Source: a virus. From it: DNA of 21,728 nt. Where the stretch lies: IMG/VR virus record IMGVR_UViG_3300006104_000083, positions 1-21,728 of that record. One strand, given 5' to 3'. A program made the translations under genes and the position numbers. Every line of letters begins with the position of its first letter. Within the stretch, counting starts at the first letter, position 1. Below, piece after piece: positions 8,885-15,316 of the stretch. The notes below the pieces were generated by a model. It did no database searches. It was not told the origin of the DNA and was given only the letters and a program-made list of their open reading frames with translations.

Positions 8885-9003
8885 TCTGTGGTCAACCGAT
8901 CGACTGCCCCGAGGTGGCCATCGGTGTGTGGCGACACACCACGACCAAACAGATCAGGTGTCACACCGATCAACCAGACTGTGATCACAGGGTGACCCCA
9001 TGA
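8791..9003 (+). CDS. Overlapping zinc-ribbon protein
   Basis: 70 residues. The first 31 overlap the previous gene in a different frame and are low in structure; the unique part has CLICGQPIDC and later C-x6-C residues (IRCHTDQPDC), suitable for zinc. AAGGGG lies seven bases before ATG 8791, a strong ribosome site. No later ATG, GTG or TTG start is available in frame, and without this gene 8885-8999 would be an unexplained gap. The stop overlaps the next ATG (ATGA). Confidence 0.55.
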   Translation: MCDLDQRSVHGDDTQSGQSQDTGTRVGRRCLICGQPIDCPEVAIGVWRHTTTKQIRCHTDQPDCDHRVTP

Positions 9004-9491
9004 CGATCGTCGCTGGCATCGTCACACCCACTGGGTGTTACATCGGATCCGACTCGATGTCGAGTGACGGTGATCTCTACACGGTCTCGGCCACACCAAA
9101 GATCATGAGGGTCGGTGACACCCTGATCGGGTTTGCTGGATCATGGCGAGCGGGTCAGCAGTTCTTTGATCACGTACGCAAGAACGAGACGATGACCCTC
9201 GAGCAGATGGTTGACTTTGAGACGACCGAGACTGACTTCAACCTGCTGGTGATCAAGGATCGTGAGGTCTACGAGGTCTCACAGGATCGGGCACTGATCA
9301 AGTCGGTCAAGACTCGAGGTGTGGCCTACGCCGCGATCGGGTCAGGGTCGGCGGTGTGTCTGGGTGCCCTTGCCTACGCCCGACCCAAACTTGACAAGGT
9401 GGCACTCAGGCGGGCGTTGACCGTGACCGCTCAACACGTGACGACGGTCTGTGCCCCGATGACGGTCATGTCTGTGCTAGAACAGAGGTAA
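9000..9491 (+). CDS. Proteasome/HslV-like N-terminal nucleophile hydrolase
   Basis: 163 residues. After removal of Met1, Thr becomes residue 1 (MTIVAGIV), with Asp at 17 (YIGSDSMS) and Lys at 33 (ATPKIMRVGD). These are the spacings of the Thr1-Asp17-Lys33 triad of HslV and proteasome beta subunits. The GFAGSWRAGQQFFDHV and YAAIGSGSAVCLGAL blocks also match that fold. It is close to HslV size. No ATPase partner (HslU, Mpa/ARC) is encoded in the window, so it may act alone, use a host unfoldase, or process a phage protein. It lies directly upstream of the DNA-modification genes. Substrate unknown. Confidence 0.82.
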   Translation: MTIVAGIVTPTGCYIGSDSMSSDGDLYTVSATPKIMRVGDTLIGFAGSWRAGQQFFDHVRKNETMTLEQMVDFETTETDFNLLVIKDREVYEVSQDRALIKSVKTRGVAYAAIGSGSAVCLGALAYARPKLDKVALRRALTVTAQHVTTVCAPMTVMSVLEQR

Positions 9492-9516: not shown

Positions 9517-10077
9517 ATGACACTGTCAGTCCACTCGGTCGCCATCGACTCGGTCACACCACACCCAGAGAACGTACGTCAGGGCGATGTCGGGTCGATC
9601 GTCGAGTCGCTCAAGACTCACGGCCAGTACCGACCCATCGTCGTACAGAAGTCGACGGGTCACATCTTGGCTGGTAACCACACGTGGAAGGCCGCCCGAC
9701 TGCTCAAGTGGCCAGAGATCGCGGTCACCGAGATCGACGTTGACGACGAGCAAGCCTTACGGATCCTGTTGATGGACAACCGAGCCAACGATCTGGCCTC
9801 ATACGACGAGTCGGGTCTGCTCGACCTGCTCAAGATGTTGGCCGAGTCTGAGGCACAGTTGGCGGGTACTGGTTACACCCTCGAGGATCTCGACGACAAG
9901 GCGGCACTGGCGGCACTGACCCTCGACCTCAGTGACGACCCGATCGGTGAACTCCACGATCACCTCGCGGTGGTCAAGATCCGTCTCGACCTTGACAAAG
10001 AGACCGCCGACCTATTCCGCGCACAACCGGGACACGACGACGTGGCCAAACTCAAGGGTCTGCTCGGTGTCAGTTGA
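9517..10077 (+). CDS. ParB/sulfiredoxin-fold protein next to DpdA
   Basis: 186 residues. Residues 1-90 form a ParB N-terminal-like domain: VAIDSVTPHPENVRQGD, SLKTHGQYRPIVVQ, HILAGNHTWKAARLL (the nucleotide-binding G-N-H box) and a DxDDEQALRILLMDNRAND segment. A C-terminal helical region follows (LLDLLKMLAESEAQLAGTGYTLEDL). ATG 9517 has CAGGGGAGAG upstream. The gene overlaps dpdA by 11 bases. The bacterial Dpd system needs DpdB, a ParB/DndB-like protein, beside DpdA, so this gene may assist the transglycosylase. A partition or nuclease role is the alternative. Confidence 0.82.
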   Translation: MTLSVHSVAIDSVTPHPENVRQGDVGSIVESLKTHGQYRPIVVQKSTGHILAGNHTWKAARLLKWPEIAVTEIDVDDEQALRILLMDNRANDLASYDESGLLDLLKMLAESEAQLAGTGYTLEDLDDKAALAALTLDLSDDPIGELHDHLAVVKIRLDLDKETADLFRAQPGHDDVAKLKGLLGVS

Positions 10078-10939
10078 TCTACTGATGTCGTATGCCTACC
10101 ATGCGACTGCCAAGTTTGACAAGATCCGTGAGGCACTGGGTGCCAACCAGCACCTGATGATCGACTCGGGGGCGTTTACCGTCTTTACCAAAGGCAAGCA
10201 GATCGACCGTGAGCAGTACGCCAAGTTCTTGACCCACTGGCGAGGTGCCTACAACTACGCCATGACCCTCGACGTGATCGGTGACCCAGTGGCGACCGAG
10301 GCAAACCTACAGTGGTTGCTCGACAAGGGTCTGCCGGTGATCCCCGTTTACACAGCACGTGCCCCGATCAGTGAACTCGAGTCACTGGCCGAGCGGTTTG
10401 ACTACATCGCCTACGGTGGTCTCGTCGGTGTGCCCAAACCGATCCAGATGCGAGCCCTCAAGGTGGTCACCGACATCGCCGCTCAAGCCAACTGTCGAGT
10501 TCACGCTCTCGGTCAAGCGTCGGCACGTACGTTTACCCAGACCCAGACCTACTCGGGCGACTCGTCAAAGGCCTCGACAGCACCAGTCAACAACACGGTG
10601 TCGTTGGCCGATCTCTCGACGGGCAAGTTTGTGACGATCAAGATGAACGACCCAAAGACAGCGATCGGTCACGAACGACTGCTCAGGGCGTACGGTCTCA
10701 ACGTGGCCGACTGCTTCGGCCCTGATCGTTGGCAACGAGACAACCGAAAGAAGATCATGAGGGCTGGGTTCTTGGCCGTTGCTGTCATGGGCGCACTACT
10801 CAAGGGTGAGAACGAGAAGCCTGTGGTCTACTCGGCGTTTACGTCAGGTGACCTCGATGCGATCCTCAACGCCGCCCGAGACTGGCGCACCGGCAACCTG
10901 CCACCAGCGTTTGATCACGTACTGGCGAGGTCGATGTGA
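10067..10939 (+). CDS. dpdA: DpdA-type DNA 7-deazaguanine transglycosylase
   Basis: 290 residues. It belongs to the tRNA-guanine transglycosylase (TGT) superfamily as found in phage DpdA proteins: LLMSYAYH at 5-12, IDSGAFT at 32-38, TLDVIGDP at 67-74 with the likely nucleophile region, IAYGGLVGVPK and VHALGQAS further on. DpdA swaps guanine in double-stranded DNA for a 7-deazaguanine base. GTG 10067 was chosen because it gives the N-terminal strand expected for the family (VDLLMSYAY) and overlaps parB; ATG 10085 is the alternative. A tRNA-modifying role is unlikely next to phage queD, queE and folE. The DpdA subfamily could not be assigned by eye. Confidence 0.85.
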   Translation: MSVDLLMSYAYHATAKFDKIREALGANQHLMIDSGAFTVFTKGKQIDREQYAKFLTHWRGAYNYAMTLDVIGDPVATEANLQWLLDKGLPVIPVYTARAPISELESLAERFDYIAYGGLVGVPKPIQMRALKVVTDIAAQANCRVHALGQASARTFTQTQTYSGDSSKASTAPVNNTVSLADLSTGKFVTIKMNDPKTAIGHERLLRAYGLNVADCFGPDRWQRDNRKKIMRAGFLAVAVMGALLKGENEKPVVYSAFTSGDLDAILNAARDWRTGNLPPAFDHVLARSM

Positions 10940-11514
10940 ACGTCGATCAGGGTGTGACCTTTGGTCTGTGGCCTGACCAGACCTCGAAGTTGATCTACTG
11001 GGATCTCATGCCCGTCATGCTCAACGGTGTCGACACCAGTGGTCGAGTCGGTGATCTTGGTGGGGGCAACGGGATCATCAAGACGTGGGTGCCACAGGCC
11101 GTGACGATCGACGTTGACGAGACCAAACAACCAGACATCGTCGACAACATCTTGACCCACGTCGGTGACTACGACCTTGTGATCATCAGATACGTACTTC
11201 ACTACCTCGATGATCATCAGGTACGGGCACTACTGAGACACCTGTCGCTCAACCACGACGGTCAGATCTTGTTGATCCAGTTTGTCAACGACGACCTCGA
11301 GGCCAAGCAAGCCAACTCGGTCAACGAGACCAAGTGGTTTCGACGTGAGGATCATCTTGAGTCACTGATCGCTCACACCCACCTGATCGTTGATCGTAAG
11401 TCAGTCGGGTACCGTGTCGGTGCCGACTTCTACCGCAACCGACTTGGTCACCCAAACCCCACGCCACACAACGAGACCGTCGTTGGTTACCTACTCGAGA
11501 GGAGACTGCCATGA
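10936..11514 (+). CDS. Class I SAM-dependent methyltransferase in the modification cluster
   Basis: 192 residues starting at GTG 10936 (GTGA overlap with dpdA). Motif I is GDLGGGNG at 39-46, the acidic end of strand 2 is TIDVDE at 57-62, and motif IV is YDLVIIRYVLHYL at 79-91, as in Methyltransf_11/25-type small-molecule methyltransferases. No DPPY/NPPY or PC motif is present, so it is not a standard DNA base methylase. The gene lies between dpdA and queD with overlapping starts, which implies a job in making or finishing the 7-deazaguanine base. The acceptor (for example the CDG carboxylate, free or in DNA) is inference. Confidence 0.75.
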   Translation: MNVDQGVTFGLWPDQTSKLIYWDLMPVMLNGVDTSGRVGDLGGGNGIIKTWVPQAVTIDVDETKQPDIVDNILTHVGDYDLVIIRYVLHYLDDHQVRALLRHLSLNHDGQILLIQFVNDDLEAKQANSVNETKWFRREDHLESLIAHTHLIVDRKSVGYRVGADFYRNRLGHPNPTPHNETVVGYLLERRLP

Positions 11515-11957
11515 GAACGTCGATAAGCAAAGAGGTTGAGTTTGACACAGGACACCGAGTACCCGATCACCAGTCAAAGTGTTACAACCCACATGGTCAC
11601 CGTTATCGTGTCAGGGCGACGTGTGAGGGTCAGGTTGTCAACGAGGCAGGGTCGGCAGACAACGGCATGCTCGTCGACTTCTCAGACCTCAAGCGTTGGT
11701 TGACCGAGTACGTACACGATCGGTTTGACCACGCCTTTGTCGTGTACGCCGACGATGTCACGATGCGTCACGCCCTCACCACTGATCCGTTGTGGAACGT
11801 GGTGGTCGTCAACTACACACCGACGGCCGAGAACCTTGCTCGAGACATCTTTGTACGACTGGCACCGATCATCGAGTCACACTGGCGTGGCAACATGACC
11901 CTGACCAAGATCGAGTTGTGGGAGACCCCGACCAGTGTTGCGGTGGTGGAACGATGA
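11511..11957 (+). CDS. queD: QueD, 6-carboxytetrahydropterin synthase
   Basis: 148 residues. The zinc site is H15 (FDTGHRVPDH), H28 and H30 (NPHGHRYRV), with the catalytic-type cysteine C24 between them. NGMLVDFSDLKRWL, FDHAF with H74, PTAENLARDIF and E138 (ELWET) complete the pattern. It converts dihydroneopterin triphosphate from FolE to 6-carboxy-tetrahydropterin, the second step toward 7-deazaguanines. ATG 11511 overlaps the methyltransferase stop and follows GAGAGGAG. Slightly longer than typical QueD (about 120). Confidence 0.93.
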   Translation: MRTSISKEVEFDTGHRVPDHQSKCYNPHGHRYRVRATCEGQVVNEAGSADNGMLVDFSDLKRWLTEYVHDRFDHAFVVYADDVTMRHALTTDPLWNVVVVNYTPTAENLARDIFVRLAPIIESHWRGNMTLTKIELWETPTSVAVVER

Positions 11958-12676
11958 CCAGCGATCGTGTGGTGATCCACAACTCACGTCACGTACCGAC
12001 CCTACGTGTGGCCGAGGTCTTTGGTCCCACGATCCAAGGCGAGGGCAAACACATGGGTCGACAAACTCACTTCATCAGACTGAGCGGTTGTAACTTGTCA
12101 TGCTCATGGTGTGACACCCCGTACACGTGGGACTGGTCTGGTGTCAACGGCACCAAGTACGACCGGGAGACCGAGTCAAAGATCTACACGGTTGAGGAAC
12201 TGGTCAACCTGATGGATCAGTCAGAGGCAACCAGCGTGGTGATCACAGGTGGTGAGCCACTGGTACAGGCAAAGGCACTGGTCGAGTTGGCCAACGATCT
12301 GATCTACATGGGGATCAGTGTCGAGATCGAGACCAACGGCACCCGACCCTGCCCCGACAACATCTCACGATCGGTACAGTGGAACATCAGCCCCAAACTG
12401 ACGACCAGTGGTAACGCCAACGGGATCAAACCAAAGGCACTGAGGTCGTACCCAGCGTCAGCGATCTACAAGTTTGTGATCACTGATCCGACCGACATCG
12501 ACGAGATCAACCGACTGGGTCTGGCACCATCACAGGTCTGGTTGATGCCCGAGGGTCGTACTCCGACCGAGATCAACAAGCGAGCCCTCATGGTCGCCAA
12601 CCTCGCCCTGACACACGGGTACAACTACTCACATCGACTACACGTCACGTTGTGGGGCAACAAGAGAGGACACTGA
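11954..12676 (+). CDS. queE: QueE, 7-carboxy-7-deazaguanine synthase
   Basis: 240 residues. The QueE signature VAEVFGPTIQGEG at 19-31 is followed by the radical-SAM cluster C46-x3-C50-x2-C53 (CNLSCSWCDTPYTWDW) and GGEPL at 99-103. The end reads RLHVTLWGNKRG as in QueE. It rearranges 6-carboxytetrahydropterin to 7-carboxy-7-deazaguanine (CDG) using SAM and a [4Fe-4S] cluster. ATG 11954 overlaps the queD stop; the earlier in-frame start would lie inside queD. This is the last dedicated biosynthetic step visible in the window, as no queC is present. Confidence 0.95.
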   Translation: MTSDRVVIHNSRHVPTLRVAEVFGPTIQGEGKHMGRQTHFIRLSGCNLSCSWCDTPYTWDWSGVNGTKYDRETESKIYTVEELVNLMDQSEATSVVITGGEPLVQAKALVELANDLIYMGISVEIETNGTRPCPDNISRSVQWNISPKLTTSGNANGIKPKALRSYPASAIYKFVITDPTDIDEINRLGLAPSQVWLMPEGRTPTEINKRALMVANLALTHGYNYSHRLHVTLWGNKRGH

Positions 12677-12677
12677 G

Positions 12678-13580
12678 ATGTTGGAGATCACTGAGACGGG
12701 CGTATACGCGTCTCTCGCGGCAGTTGTGGCCGAGGGTCGACGGTTAGCCCAGAGATGGGTCGGCAAGGGTATAACTGACGTTTGCGGCATACCACGTGGC
12801 GGTCTGTACCCAGCACTGATCGTGGCCGAGACACTGGGCGTACCAGTCACTGATCAGGTCACCGCTAACACACTGGTCGTCGACGATCTTGTTGACTCGG
12901 GTCGTACCGCCGAGTGGTGGGTCAAGAGCCATCACTTTGACGCCCTTTACCGCAAGTCACACTCACCCGCTCACATCGCACCCGAGGCCACTGAGATCGA
13001 GGGTTGGATCACGTTCGCTTGGGAGACCAACGAGACGGGACCAGAGGACGCAGTCGTACGGTTGCTTGAGTACGTGGGTGAGGATCCGACTCGAGACGGT
13101 CTGATCGACACACCCAAGCGGGTGATCAAAGCACTGACCGAGTTGACCACAGGGTACGGCCAGTCACCCGAGACGATCTTGTCGACGACCTTTGACGTTG
13201 GATCCGACGAGATGATCGTGGTCAGCAACATCGAGTTCTCGTCGATGTGTGAACACCACATGTTGCCGTTCATCGGCCACGTGACGATCGGGTACATACC
13301 TCGAGGTCGAGTCGTCGGTCTCTCAAAGTTGGCACGACTCGTCGACGTGTTTGCCAAACGACTACAGGTACAAGAGCGACTGACCCGTGAGATCGCCCAA
13401 GCCATCGAGGATCATCTCGACACGGTGGGTGTGGGTGTGATCGTTACGAGCCACCACTCGTGTATGGGTCTGAGGGGCGTCAAGAAGCCATCGGCCAAGA
13501 TGACGACCTCATCGCTACTCGGTGTGTTTCGGTCTGACCCCGTCGTGAGATCAGAGTTTCTCGCTCACCACGATCACTAG
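12678..13580 (+). CDS. folE: Phosphoribosyltransferase-GTP cyclohydrolase I fusion
   Basis: 300 residues. Residues 1-115 look like a type I phosphoribosyltransferase: VCGIPRGGLYPALIVAE and the PRPP loop LVVDDLVDSGRT at 66-77. Residues about 120-300 are FolE (GTP cyclohydrolase I): GEDPTRDGLIDTPKRV at 134-149, EFSSMCEHHMLPFIGH, zinc ligands C191, H194 and C262 (HHSCMGLRGV). FolE makes dihydroneopterin triphosphate from GTP, the first step toward CDG. The N-terminal domain may recycle a purine base to its nucleotide. It starts one base after queE; GAGAGGA lies upstream. The modification operon ends here. Confidence 0.9.
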   Translation: MLEITETGVYASLAAVVAEGRRLAQRWVGKGITDVCGIPRGGLYPALIVAETLGVPVTDQVTANTLVVDDLVDSGRTAEWWVKSHHFDALYRKSHSPAHIAPEATEIEGWITFAWETNETGPEDAVVRLLEYVGEDPTRDGLIDTPKRVIKALTELTTGYGQSPETILSTTFDVGSDEMIVVSNIEFSSMCEHHMLPFIGHVTIGYIPRGRVVGLSKLARLVDVFAKRLQVQERLTREIAQAIEDHLDTVGVGVIVTSHHSCMGLRGVKKPSAKMTTSSLLGVFRSDPVVRSEFLAHHDH

Positions 13581-13593
13581 ATACGCTAGACAC

Positions 13594-14073
13594 ATGGGCA
13601 ATAGAAACAACACACCGACCCCAGAGTTGATCGACAAAGAGCGACGGGTACTCGAGTTGCGTCGTGCTGGTGTGACCTACGAGGAGATCGCCAACCTCAC
13701 TGGGTACGCCACCGCTCAAGGTGCCTACCTCGCCTACAACCGAGCCCTCAAGAGAACGCTCGTTGACGCTGGTGCCCAAGAAGCCCGAGAGATGGAACTC
13801 GACCGACTCGACAAACTACAACGATCATGCTGGGCTCGAGCCCTCAACGGTGACGACAAGGCAGTCGACCGAGTGTTGCGGATCATGGAACATCGTGCCC
13901 GCTACCTCGGTTTGTACGCCCCGACAAAGGTACAGATGGAGACGGTGGTCTATGACGCAGGAACGATCGAAGGAGAAGTCGCCCGACTCAGACTCCTACT
14001 TGAGCAACCTAGCGGCGAGCAGGGTGTTCTGGACGGATCATCAAGCGAGACCGGAACAGATACCGAGTCTTGA
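13594..14073 (+). CDS. Terminase small subunit
   Basis: 159 residues. An N-terminal helix-turn-helix (RRVLELRRAGVTYEEIANLTGY, in two runs) is followed by a long helical section (EMELDRLDKLQRSCWARA, DKAVDRVLRIMEHRARYLGL) with the 'RYLGLYAP' end common to phage small terminases. It would recognise the packaging site and regulate the large subunit. The gene overlaps the large terminase by 122 bases in another frame, so its disordered serine/glutamate-rich tail is dual-coding. No clear ribosome site precedes ATG 13594. Confidence 0.8.
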   Translation: MGNRNNTPTPELIDKERRVLELRRAGVTYEEIANLTGYATAQGAYLAYNRALKRTLVDAGAQEAREMELDRLDKLQRSCWARALNGDDKAVDRVLRIMEHRARYLGLYAPTKVQMETVVYDAGTIEGEVARLRLLLEQPSGEQGVLDGSSSETGTDTES

Positions 14074-15316
14074 CGACTGGGGCGTGTGGTTGTACCTCGC
14101 TGGTCGAGGTGCTGGTAAGACCCGTACCGCCGCAGAGTGGGTGGCGTGGCAAGCGATCACACAGGCCGGTACCCGATGGGCGGTAGTGGCCGCGACCTTT
14201 GGTGACGTACGTGACACGTGTGCCGAGGGTGAGTCAGGTCTGATCACCGTCTTGCGTCGGTACAACGTACTCAAGCACTACAACCGCTCGATGGGTGAGA
14301 TCCGTCTCGACAACGGGTCACTGATCAAGTTGTTCTCAGCCGACGAGCCAGACCGACTACGTGGTCCACAGTTTCACGGTGCTTGGTGTGACGAGTTAGC
14401 CGCGTGGCGGTACACCGACACCTACGACCAACTCCAGTTCACCTTGCGTCTCGGTACCAAGCCACAAACGATCATTACAACCACACCACGACCGACCAAG
14501 ATCATCAAGGACTTGGTGGCCGAGTCAGGATCAGGTCGAGTCAGGGTGATCAGAGGATCGACCTTTGACAACGCCAAGAACTTGGCACCCGCCGCTCTCG
14601 CTCAGTTGCGCCAACGGTACGAGGGCACACGACTGGGTCGACAAGAACTCGAGGCCGAGATCCTTGACGACGTACCGGGAGCGTTGTGGACACTCAAGAT
14701 GGTTGAGGAGTGTCGGGTCACTGACGTACCTGACATGACTCGAGTCGTCGTGGCCATCGACCCCGCCGCAACCTCAAACGAGAACAGTGACGAGACGGGG
14801 ATCATCGTCGTGGGTCGTGGTGTCGACAACCGAGGCTACGTACTCGGTGACTACTCATGTCGTTTGTCACCTGCTGGGTGGGCACGTCGAGCGATCGAGG
14901 CCTTTGATCAACACCAAGCGTCACGGATCGTTGGTGAGACCAACATGGGTGGCGACATGATCGAGACGATCATCAAGCAGATCAGACCGACGATCCCTTA
15001 TCGAGGTGTCGTGGCCAAGCGAGGCAAGTTGCTACGAGCAGAGCCAGTGTCGGCGTTGTACGAGCAGGGTCGGATCAGTCATCACGGGATCTACGCCGAA
15101 CTCGAGACCCAGATGACGACATGGGTCGCTGGTGAGTCAGACTTCTCACCCGACCGACTCGACGCTCTCGTACACGGGATCACATCACTCAACATCGGGT
15201 CTGAGGGTGGTGCCGACCGTTACTTTGCGGCCATCGCCCCGAGGTGTCCGTACTGTGACATGCCCAACCCAGCCGAGGCGACGATCTGCGCGTCGTGTGT
15301 ACGGTCGCTACAATGA
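13952..15316 (+). CDS. Terminase large subunit with C-terminal zinc ribbon
   Basis: 454 residues. ATPase: Walker A GRGAGKT at 51-57, Walker B-like GAWCDELAAW. RNase H-like nuclease: VVVAIDPAATS, IVGETNMGGDM and DFSPDRLDALVHGIT supply the acidic residues. It powers DNA into the prohead and cuts it. The last 23 residues add CPYC...CASC (C432, C435, C446, C449), a zinc ribbon that is not part of the usual core. ATG 13952 has GGAG about 10 bases upstream; a start further upstream in frame would lie deep within the small terminase. Confidence 0.93.
   Translation: MTQERSKEKSPDSDSYLSNLAASRVFWTDHQARPEQIPSLDDWGVWLYLAGRGAGKTRTAAEWVAWQAITQAGTRWAVVAATFGDVRDTCAEGESGLITVLRRYNVLKHYNRSMGEIRLDNGSLIKLFSADEPDRLRGPQFHGAWCDELAAWRYTDTYDQLQFTLRLGTKPQTIITTTPRPTKIIKDLVAESGSGRVRVIRGSTFDNAKNLAPAALAQLRQRYEGTRLGRQELEAEILDDVPGALWTLKMVEECRVTDVPDMTRVVVAIDPAATSNENSDETGIIVVGRGVDNRGYVLGDYSCRLSPAGWARRAIEAFDQHQASRIVGETNMGGDMIETIIKQIRPTIPYRGVVAKRGKLLRAEPVSALYEQGRISHHGIYAELETQMTTWVAGESDFSPDRLDALVHGITSLNIGSEGGADRYFAAIAPRCPYCDMPNPAEATICASCVRSLQ

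Follow-up and report, generated by a model that had tools for sequence, protein, structure and literature searches.

A methyltransferase family occupies the position of QueC in phage 7-deazaguanine DNA-modification clusters

The window analysed here, a viral fragment from IMG/VR with a length of 21,728 bp, carries between positions 10067 and 13580 one compact operon in which every gene overlaps or abuts the next, with 4-base overlaps joining the first four genes (DpdA, methyltransferase, QueD, and QueE). The operon is preceded by a ParB-like gene and followed, 3' of its last gene, by terminase genes:

9517–10077, plus strand: ParB-like protein (PF02195, 2.1e-7; PHROG 723, 1.2e-39)
10067–10939, plus strand: DpdA, DNA-guanine transglycosylase (PHROG 887, E 1.6e-28; PHROG 7068)
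10936–11514, plus strand: QueC-slot methyltransferase (MT), class I SAM-dependent, 192 aa (Methyltransf_23, 2e-5)
11511–11957, plus strand: QueD, 6-carboxytetrahydropterin synthase (PTPS, 3.6e-31; PHROG 2389, 8.7e-32)
11954–12676, plus strand: QueE, 7-carboxy-7-deazaguanine synthase (PHROG 2076, E 1.2e-57; TIGR03365, 2.7e-28; Radical_SAM)
12678–13580, plus strand: PRT-FolE fusion, phosphoribosyltransferase-like domain and GTP cyclohydrolase I (PF01227, 4.5e-71, residues 123–297)
13594–14073, plus strand: terminase small-subunit-like gene (PHROG 645, 2e-30; PHROG label RNase E)
13952–15316, plus strand: terminase large subunit (PHROG 979, 1.4e-42; start estimated from the ORF)

Gene calls and Pfam and PHROG matches agree with an earlier, sequence-only reading of the window, which had described overlapping genes for DpdA, a methyltransferase, QueD, QueE, and a PRT-FolE fusion at this location. 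The precursor enzymes FolE, QueD, and QueE are all present by profile matches, and on reading their sequences QueD is seen to keep its CxxxHGH motif, QueE the cluster motif CX3CX2C, and FolE its metal motifs. The start of DpdA at GTG 10067 agrees with its homologues, ATG 10085 being an alternative. DpdA scores only 0.2 against the Pfam TGT profile, and the group profile gives a weak match (E 0.009) to 7ui4, a DNA-guanine transglycosylase of solved structure, but its aspartate motifs DSGAF, LDVIGD, and GDSS are intact and D27, D63, and D159 are conserved, as would be expected of a DpdA system; tblastn with DpdA finds matches in 242 phage records. The phosphoribosyltransferase domain of PRT-FolE is recognized at residues 16–59 (E 0.0012), and the fusion is matched over its full length in many phages of Pseudomonas, Stenotrophomonas, and Vibrio, and also in Sphingomonas phages; the fused domain (12678–13040) is short and carries the PRPP motif VVDDLVDSGRT. 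The terminase small-subunit-like gene has an equal position in the phages Bipper and Typha. Elsewhere in the window, a gene for an HslV/proteasome-like peptidase lies just 5' of the ParB-like gene (9000–9491; PHROG 1040, E 1.6e-20), and a WhiB-family transcription factor gene (2179–2535; PF02467, E 2.3e-11) points to an actinobacterial host.

The sequence-only reading had noted the lack of QueC in any frame, and a six-frame search of the window with the QueC profile (PF06508) was likewise empty. Eight overlapping, near-identical (>99%) IMG/VR contigs, which extend the window by 3.4 kb to the left and 11.2 kb to the right, through tail genes, to a combined ~36 kb, contain no QueC either, and a further walk leftward in IMG/VR yielded no new contig. 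A QueC assigning this phage to the dPreQ0 subtype is thus found neither in the window nor in the eight contigs, and, the genome being unclosed, its absence from the phage is likely, short of proof. In the right flank (L010, from ~21668, where the window stops on that side), a GP88-family protein (PF17338, E 1.8e-49) is encoded amid structural genes.

In the actinophages CRB2, Saguaro, Quesadilla, Sour, Sonali, Finch, Funsized, and Rinkes, the modification genes follow the order ParB-DpdA-QueC-QueD-QueE-FolE, the gene before DpdA being named QueF-like in Funsized and GTP cyclohydrolase in Rinkes. The order in the window matches that of these phages, with MT standing where QueC is. Alignment of DpdA gathered 80 loci with 51 distinct full clusters, of which 48 carry QueC and lack MT; QueC lies immediately 3' of DpdA in 38 of these 48, and the ParB-like gene, the usual upstream neighbour of DpdA in such clusters, immediately precedes the DpdA-QueC pair in 35. 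The remaining three full clusters lack QueC, one having MT and two a 141-aa orphan resembling gp4 of Bipper, and none of the 51 lacks QueC, MT, and the orphan together. The same substitution is seen in a second gene order. In L050 (36% GC), MT lies between FolE and DpdA, in the order FolE-MT-DpdA-ParB, and its order-mates L057 and L097 read FolE-QueC-DpdA-ParB, with QueC in the place that MT has in L050. Five further loci (L035, L036, L042, L071, and L094) were rejected as QueC-less clusters, since a divergent QueC is present in each. This QueC sits between DpdA and QueD and matches PF06508 at 1e-11 to 1e-15, and the phage QueC profile barely detects members of the group or misses them.

MT belongs to a previously undescribed family that recurs in the QueC slot of clusters from unrelated phages. 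All IMG/VR contigs were scanned for the DNA pattern of the MT SAM motif, blind to gene neighbourhood, and every ORF was then scored with a two-sequence MT profile, which returned ten further homologues (38–53% identity; E 6e-40 to 8e-62) separated by a clean gap from the next matches (~3e-3). The contigs of these homologues range from 25 to 71% GC. All ten homologues lie in dpd clusters, where MT is almost always immediately 3' of DpdA (contig L138 stops before DpdA), and, since homologues without the exact SAM motif would escape the scan, this statement covers all those found. PF06508 is missing from nine of these records, one of which spans 62 kb, nearly all records of the family being fragments. 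Together with the MTs of the window and L050, the twelve sequences form ~8 groups. No relatives of MT were detected among 50,697 phage records representing isolated phages or among 84,980 cellular genomes, and the sole close match among viral models is the uncharacterised phage protein A0A6J5MXR3 (44% identity). A literature search, whose reach did not include Cui 2023, found no description of the family.

The one record with both MT and QueC is L129, where a second, distant DpdA-like gene (L129:2976-4239, minus strand) lies beside them, an arrangement which suggests that this phage may run both branches and make two different modified bases. In L179, a phage membrane protein gene (L179:4045-4551, minus strand) is located between MT and QueD; its product resembles the Vut_1/YhhQ queuosine-precursor transporters, with a PF02592 match (E 7.8e-6) just under the cut-off.

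Across the ~8 MT groups, MT and QueC alternate repeatedly and near-exclusively. The DpdA tree, which was obtained by a quick search and contains some long branches, requires QueC and MT to have changed places several times. A single clade for the MT-linked DpdAs is rejected (AU p 4.9e-5), indicating that these DpdAs are not monophyletic and that the exchange happened repeatedly. The nearest relative of the window DpdA (43%) is that of L035, which retains a divergent QueC. It is therefore very probable that MT is part of the 7-deazaguanine pathway and occupies the place of QueC; the sequence-only reading had treated the methyltransferase as an extra component, a description better exchanged for that of a QueC replacement, since MT takes QueC's position.

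MT has no match in PHROG, and its similarity to Methyltransf_23 falls just below the curated Pfam cut-off. An alignment of 11 MT sequences shows 36 invariant columns, many of them polar, comprising the motifs DxGGGNG and R[YH]VLHYL (with R85 and H89) and the residues Q115-F116, K124, N130, K133, F135-R136, Y159, Y166, R169, H178, and E180. An AF2 model of high confidence (pLDDT 91.5), which superseded a mediocre first model from two sequences (pLDDT 74.5), adopts, together with its Foldseek matches, the Rossmann fold of class I SAM methyltransferases already proposed from the sequence, and the invariant DxGGGNG is a GxGxG-like motif of that class. The comparison of 10936–11514 with small-molecule methyltransferases, to which the sequence-only reading had pointed, gives BioC (8x8j), a carboxyl O-methyltransferase, as the best PDB match of the model (Foldseek E 9.6e-10). 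BioC is, however, one of 862 PDB chains that match at E ≤ 0.001, many of them O-, N-, and C-methyltransferases, so that the substrate cannot be read from the fold. By profile against PDB sequences, the nearest proteins are plant O-methyltransferases, and H89 aligns with His257 of the isoflavone O-methyltransferase 1fp2, a histidine that acts on hydroxyls, which counts against a carboxylate as the target. The model confidently predicts a fold of the small-molecule methyltransferase type, and the sequence and fold matches are compatible with O-methylation by MT.

QueC activates the carboxylate of 7-carboxy-7-deazaguanine (CDG) for amidation and dehydration to preQ0, from which the known 7-deazaguanine DNA bases mostly derive. 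In the mechanism proposed here, FolE, QueD, and QueE would yield CDG, following the established pathway (PMC13329287), and MT, in QueC's stead, would methylate CDG, most likely at the 7-carboxylate. The product would be a neutral methyl ester, 7-methoxycarbonyl-7-deazaguanine, which DpdA would swap for guanine in the phage DNA; in an alternative order, CDG would first be inserted by DpdA and the ester formed in DNA. Given a methyltransferase and no QueC, methylation of the carboxylate is the simplest reading. The earlier suggestion that QueC is lacking and that the methyltransferase acts on CDG or dCDG is strengthened by the QueC-slot position, by the ~8 groups, and by the two gene orders. Gene content, the place in the QueC slot, the alternation with QueC, the conservation across the family, and the fold are observed; which substrate MT uses, at which atom it adds the methyl group, and at what stage it acts are inferred, as are a protective role for the putative modification and the presence of CDG or its ester as a DNA base. 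We consider the chances about even that MT makes the CDG methyl ester in place of preQ0, and hold rather more tentatively the fuller account in which a phage-restricted MT esterifies free CDG, DpdA inserts 7-methoxycarbonyl-7-deazaguanine, and preQ0 has been displaced several times in evolution.

The motifs of the DpdA pocket bear on the order of steps. Bipper-type DpdAs display GKLLGN and DSGAH at the positions of GGxVG and DSGAF, and the MT-linked DpdAs do not show these changes. The lysine and histidine represent a possible charge-binding change, and, as the MT-linked DpdAs lack them, a Bipper-type DpdA would be expected to bind a charged base and an MT-linked DpdA a neutral one. This provides a weak hint that methylation may precede DpdA. 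A change of H90 to T/R was also considered as a substrate signature of MT-linked DpdAs (Fisher 4e-8) and rejected, being unsupported by kinship-aware pairs; T at position 90 is also found in the QueC-bearing L035, L036, and L057.

That MT acts on CDG or dCDG at another atom (N2, O6, or the ring), or carries out a different chemistry such as decarboxylation, appears rather unlikely. A methyl group at O6 or N1 of a guanine-type base spoils pairing in DNA, which argues against these atoms, and the carboxylate is the group that stays unprocessed without QueC. While the decarboxylase TamK and the hydroxylase RdmB are among the Foldseek matches of the MT model, the invariance of DxGGGNG throughout the family disfavours a loss of methyl transfer. 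Action at another atom would draw support from the alignment of the invariant His89 to the isoflavone O-methyltransferase histidine and from HuiC, encoded in a QueC-MT-QueD-QueE-FolE operon for huimycin, whose proposed role is the O-methylation of preQ0 at its guanine-type oxygen (PMC7439116).

We regard it as improbable that the host provides QueC or preQ0, the phage inserting dPreQ0 and MT modifying preQ0 or a downstream product. Phages can rely on host enzymes, and both the coexistence of QueC and MT in L129 and the fragmentary nature of the window would fit such an arrangement. However, each of the 51 full clusters that lacks QueC has either MT or the orphan instead, so that dependence on host QueC alone is unseen, and the alternation of QueC and MT over ~8 groups argues against it as well. 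The insertion of plain CDG, with dCDG as the main base and a minor or regulatory role for MT, is very improbable, although Cui 2023 reportedly found dCDG in phage DNA. Along the same lines, Hutinet 2019 suggested CDG as a possible base in phage Bipper, which has no QueC (PMC6884629). Yet the pocket changes with possible charge binding belong to Bipper-type DpdAs and not to the MT-linked ones. Least credible of all is a sequence-specific DNA or protein methyltransferase placed in the operon by chance: such genes are common in phages and the Methyltransf_23 similarity is generic, but all MT members found belong to dpd clusters, have no relatives in the isolated phages or cellular genomes searched, and at 192 aa MT carries neither a target-recognition or other extra domain nor a conserved [DNS]PP[YFW] or PC motif.

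On the reading that MT replaces QueC, phages with MT clusters probably carry a hitherto unreported DNA base, which is perhaps the methyl ester of CDG. The repeated replacement of QueC by the MT family would mean that the pathway forks at CDG, and a new DNA base of defined mass is predicted, for whose production in a laboratory strain the MT clusters supply a short, testable gene set. These clusters also bear on why phages keep diversifying the 7-deazaguanine position against restriction, and the recurrence of the slot swap beyond the window phage makes the finding wider than first thought.

Among known methyltransferases, the best structural match, the malonyl-ACP carboxyl O-methyltransferase BioC, methylates a carboxylate, but it shares 11–13% identity with MT, is longer, and has an unrelated substrate. 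DpdM, compared here by description, resembles the proposed MT in placing a methyl group onto a 7-deazaguanine in phage DNA; it reportedly methylates dPreQ1 (Cui 2023), and its fold is said to be unusual. Unlike DpdM as so described, MT is of Rossmann class I, and the window has no QueC or QueF for preQ1; DpdM-bearing phages are presumably among the isolated phages without an MT relative. HuiC, also compared by description, is like MT a SAM methyltransferase in a queD-queE-folE operon with a proposed 7-deazaguanine substrate, but it works with QueC, on an oxygen of preQ0, and toward a natural product rather than DNA (PMC7439116).

Among known modification clusters, those of the QueC-less Mycobacterium phages Bipper and Typha, whose complete genomes contain no QueC, share with the window the arrangement DpdA-X-QueD-QueE-FolE, with X at QueC's place; their X, however, is the 141-aa orphan, unrelated to MT, and their DpdA has the GK and DSGAH changes. 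The orphan (Bipper gp4) is found in the QueC slot at L018:2047-2472 and L030:2043-2468, with homologues in L061 and L080, and may be the enzyme behind a second base derived from CDG; perhaps it is the decarboxylase DpdL. Lastly, the preQ0 modification of Rosebush-type Mycobacterium phages (DpdA, FolE, QueD, QueE, and QueC) shares with the window its operon order beside the terminase, its precursor enzymes, and its kind of transglycosylase, and differs from it in having QueC where the window has MT.
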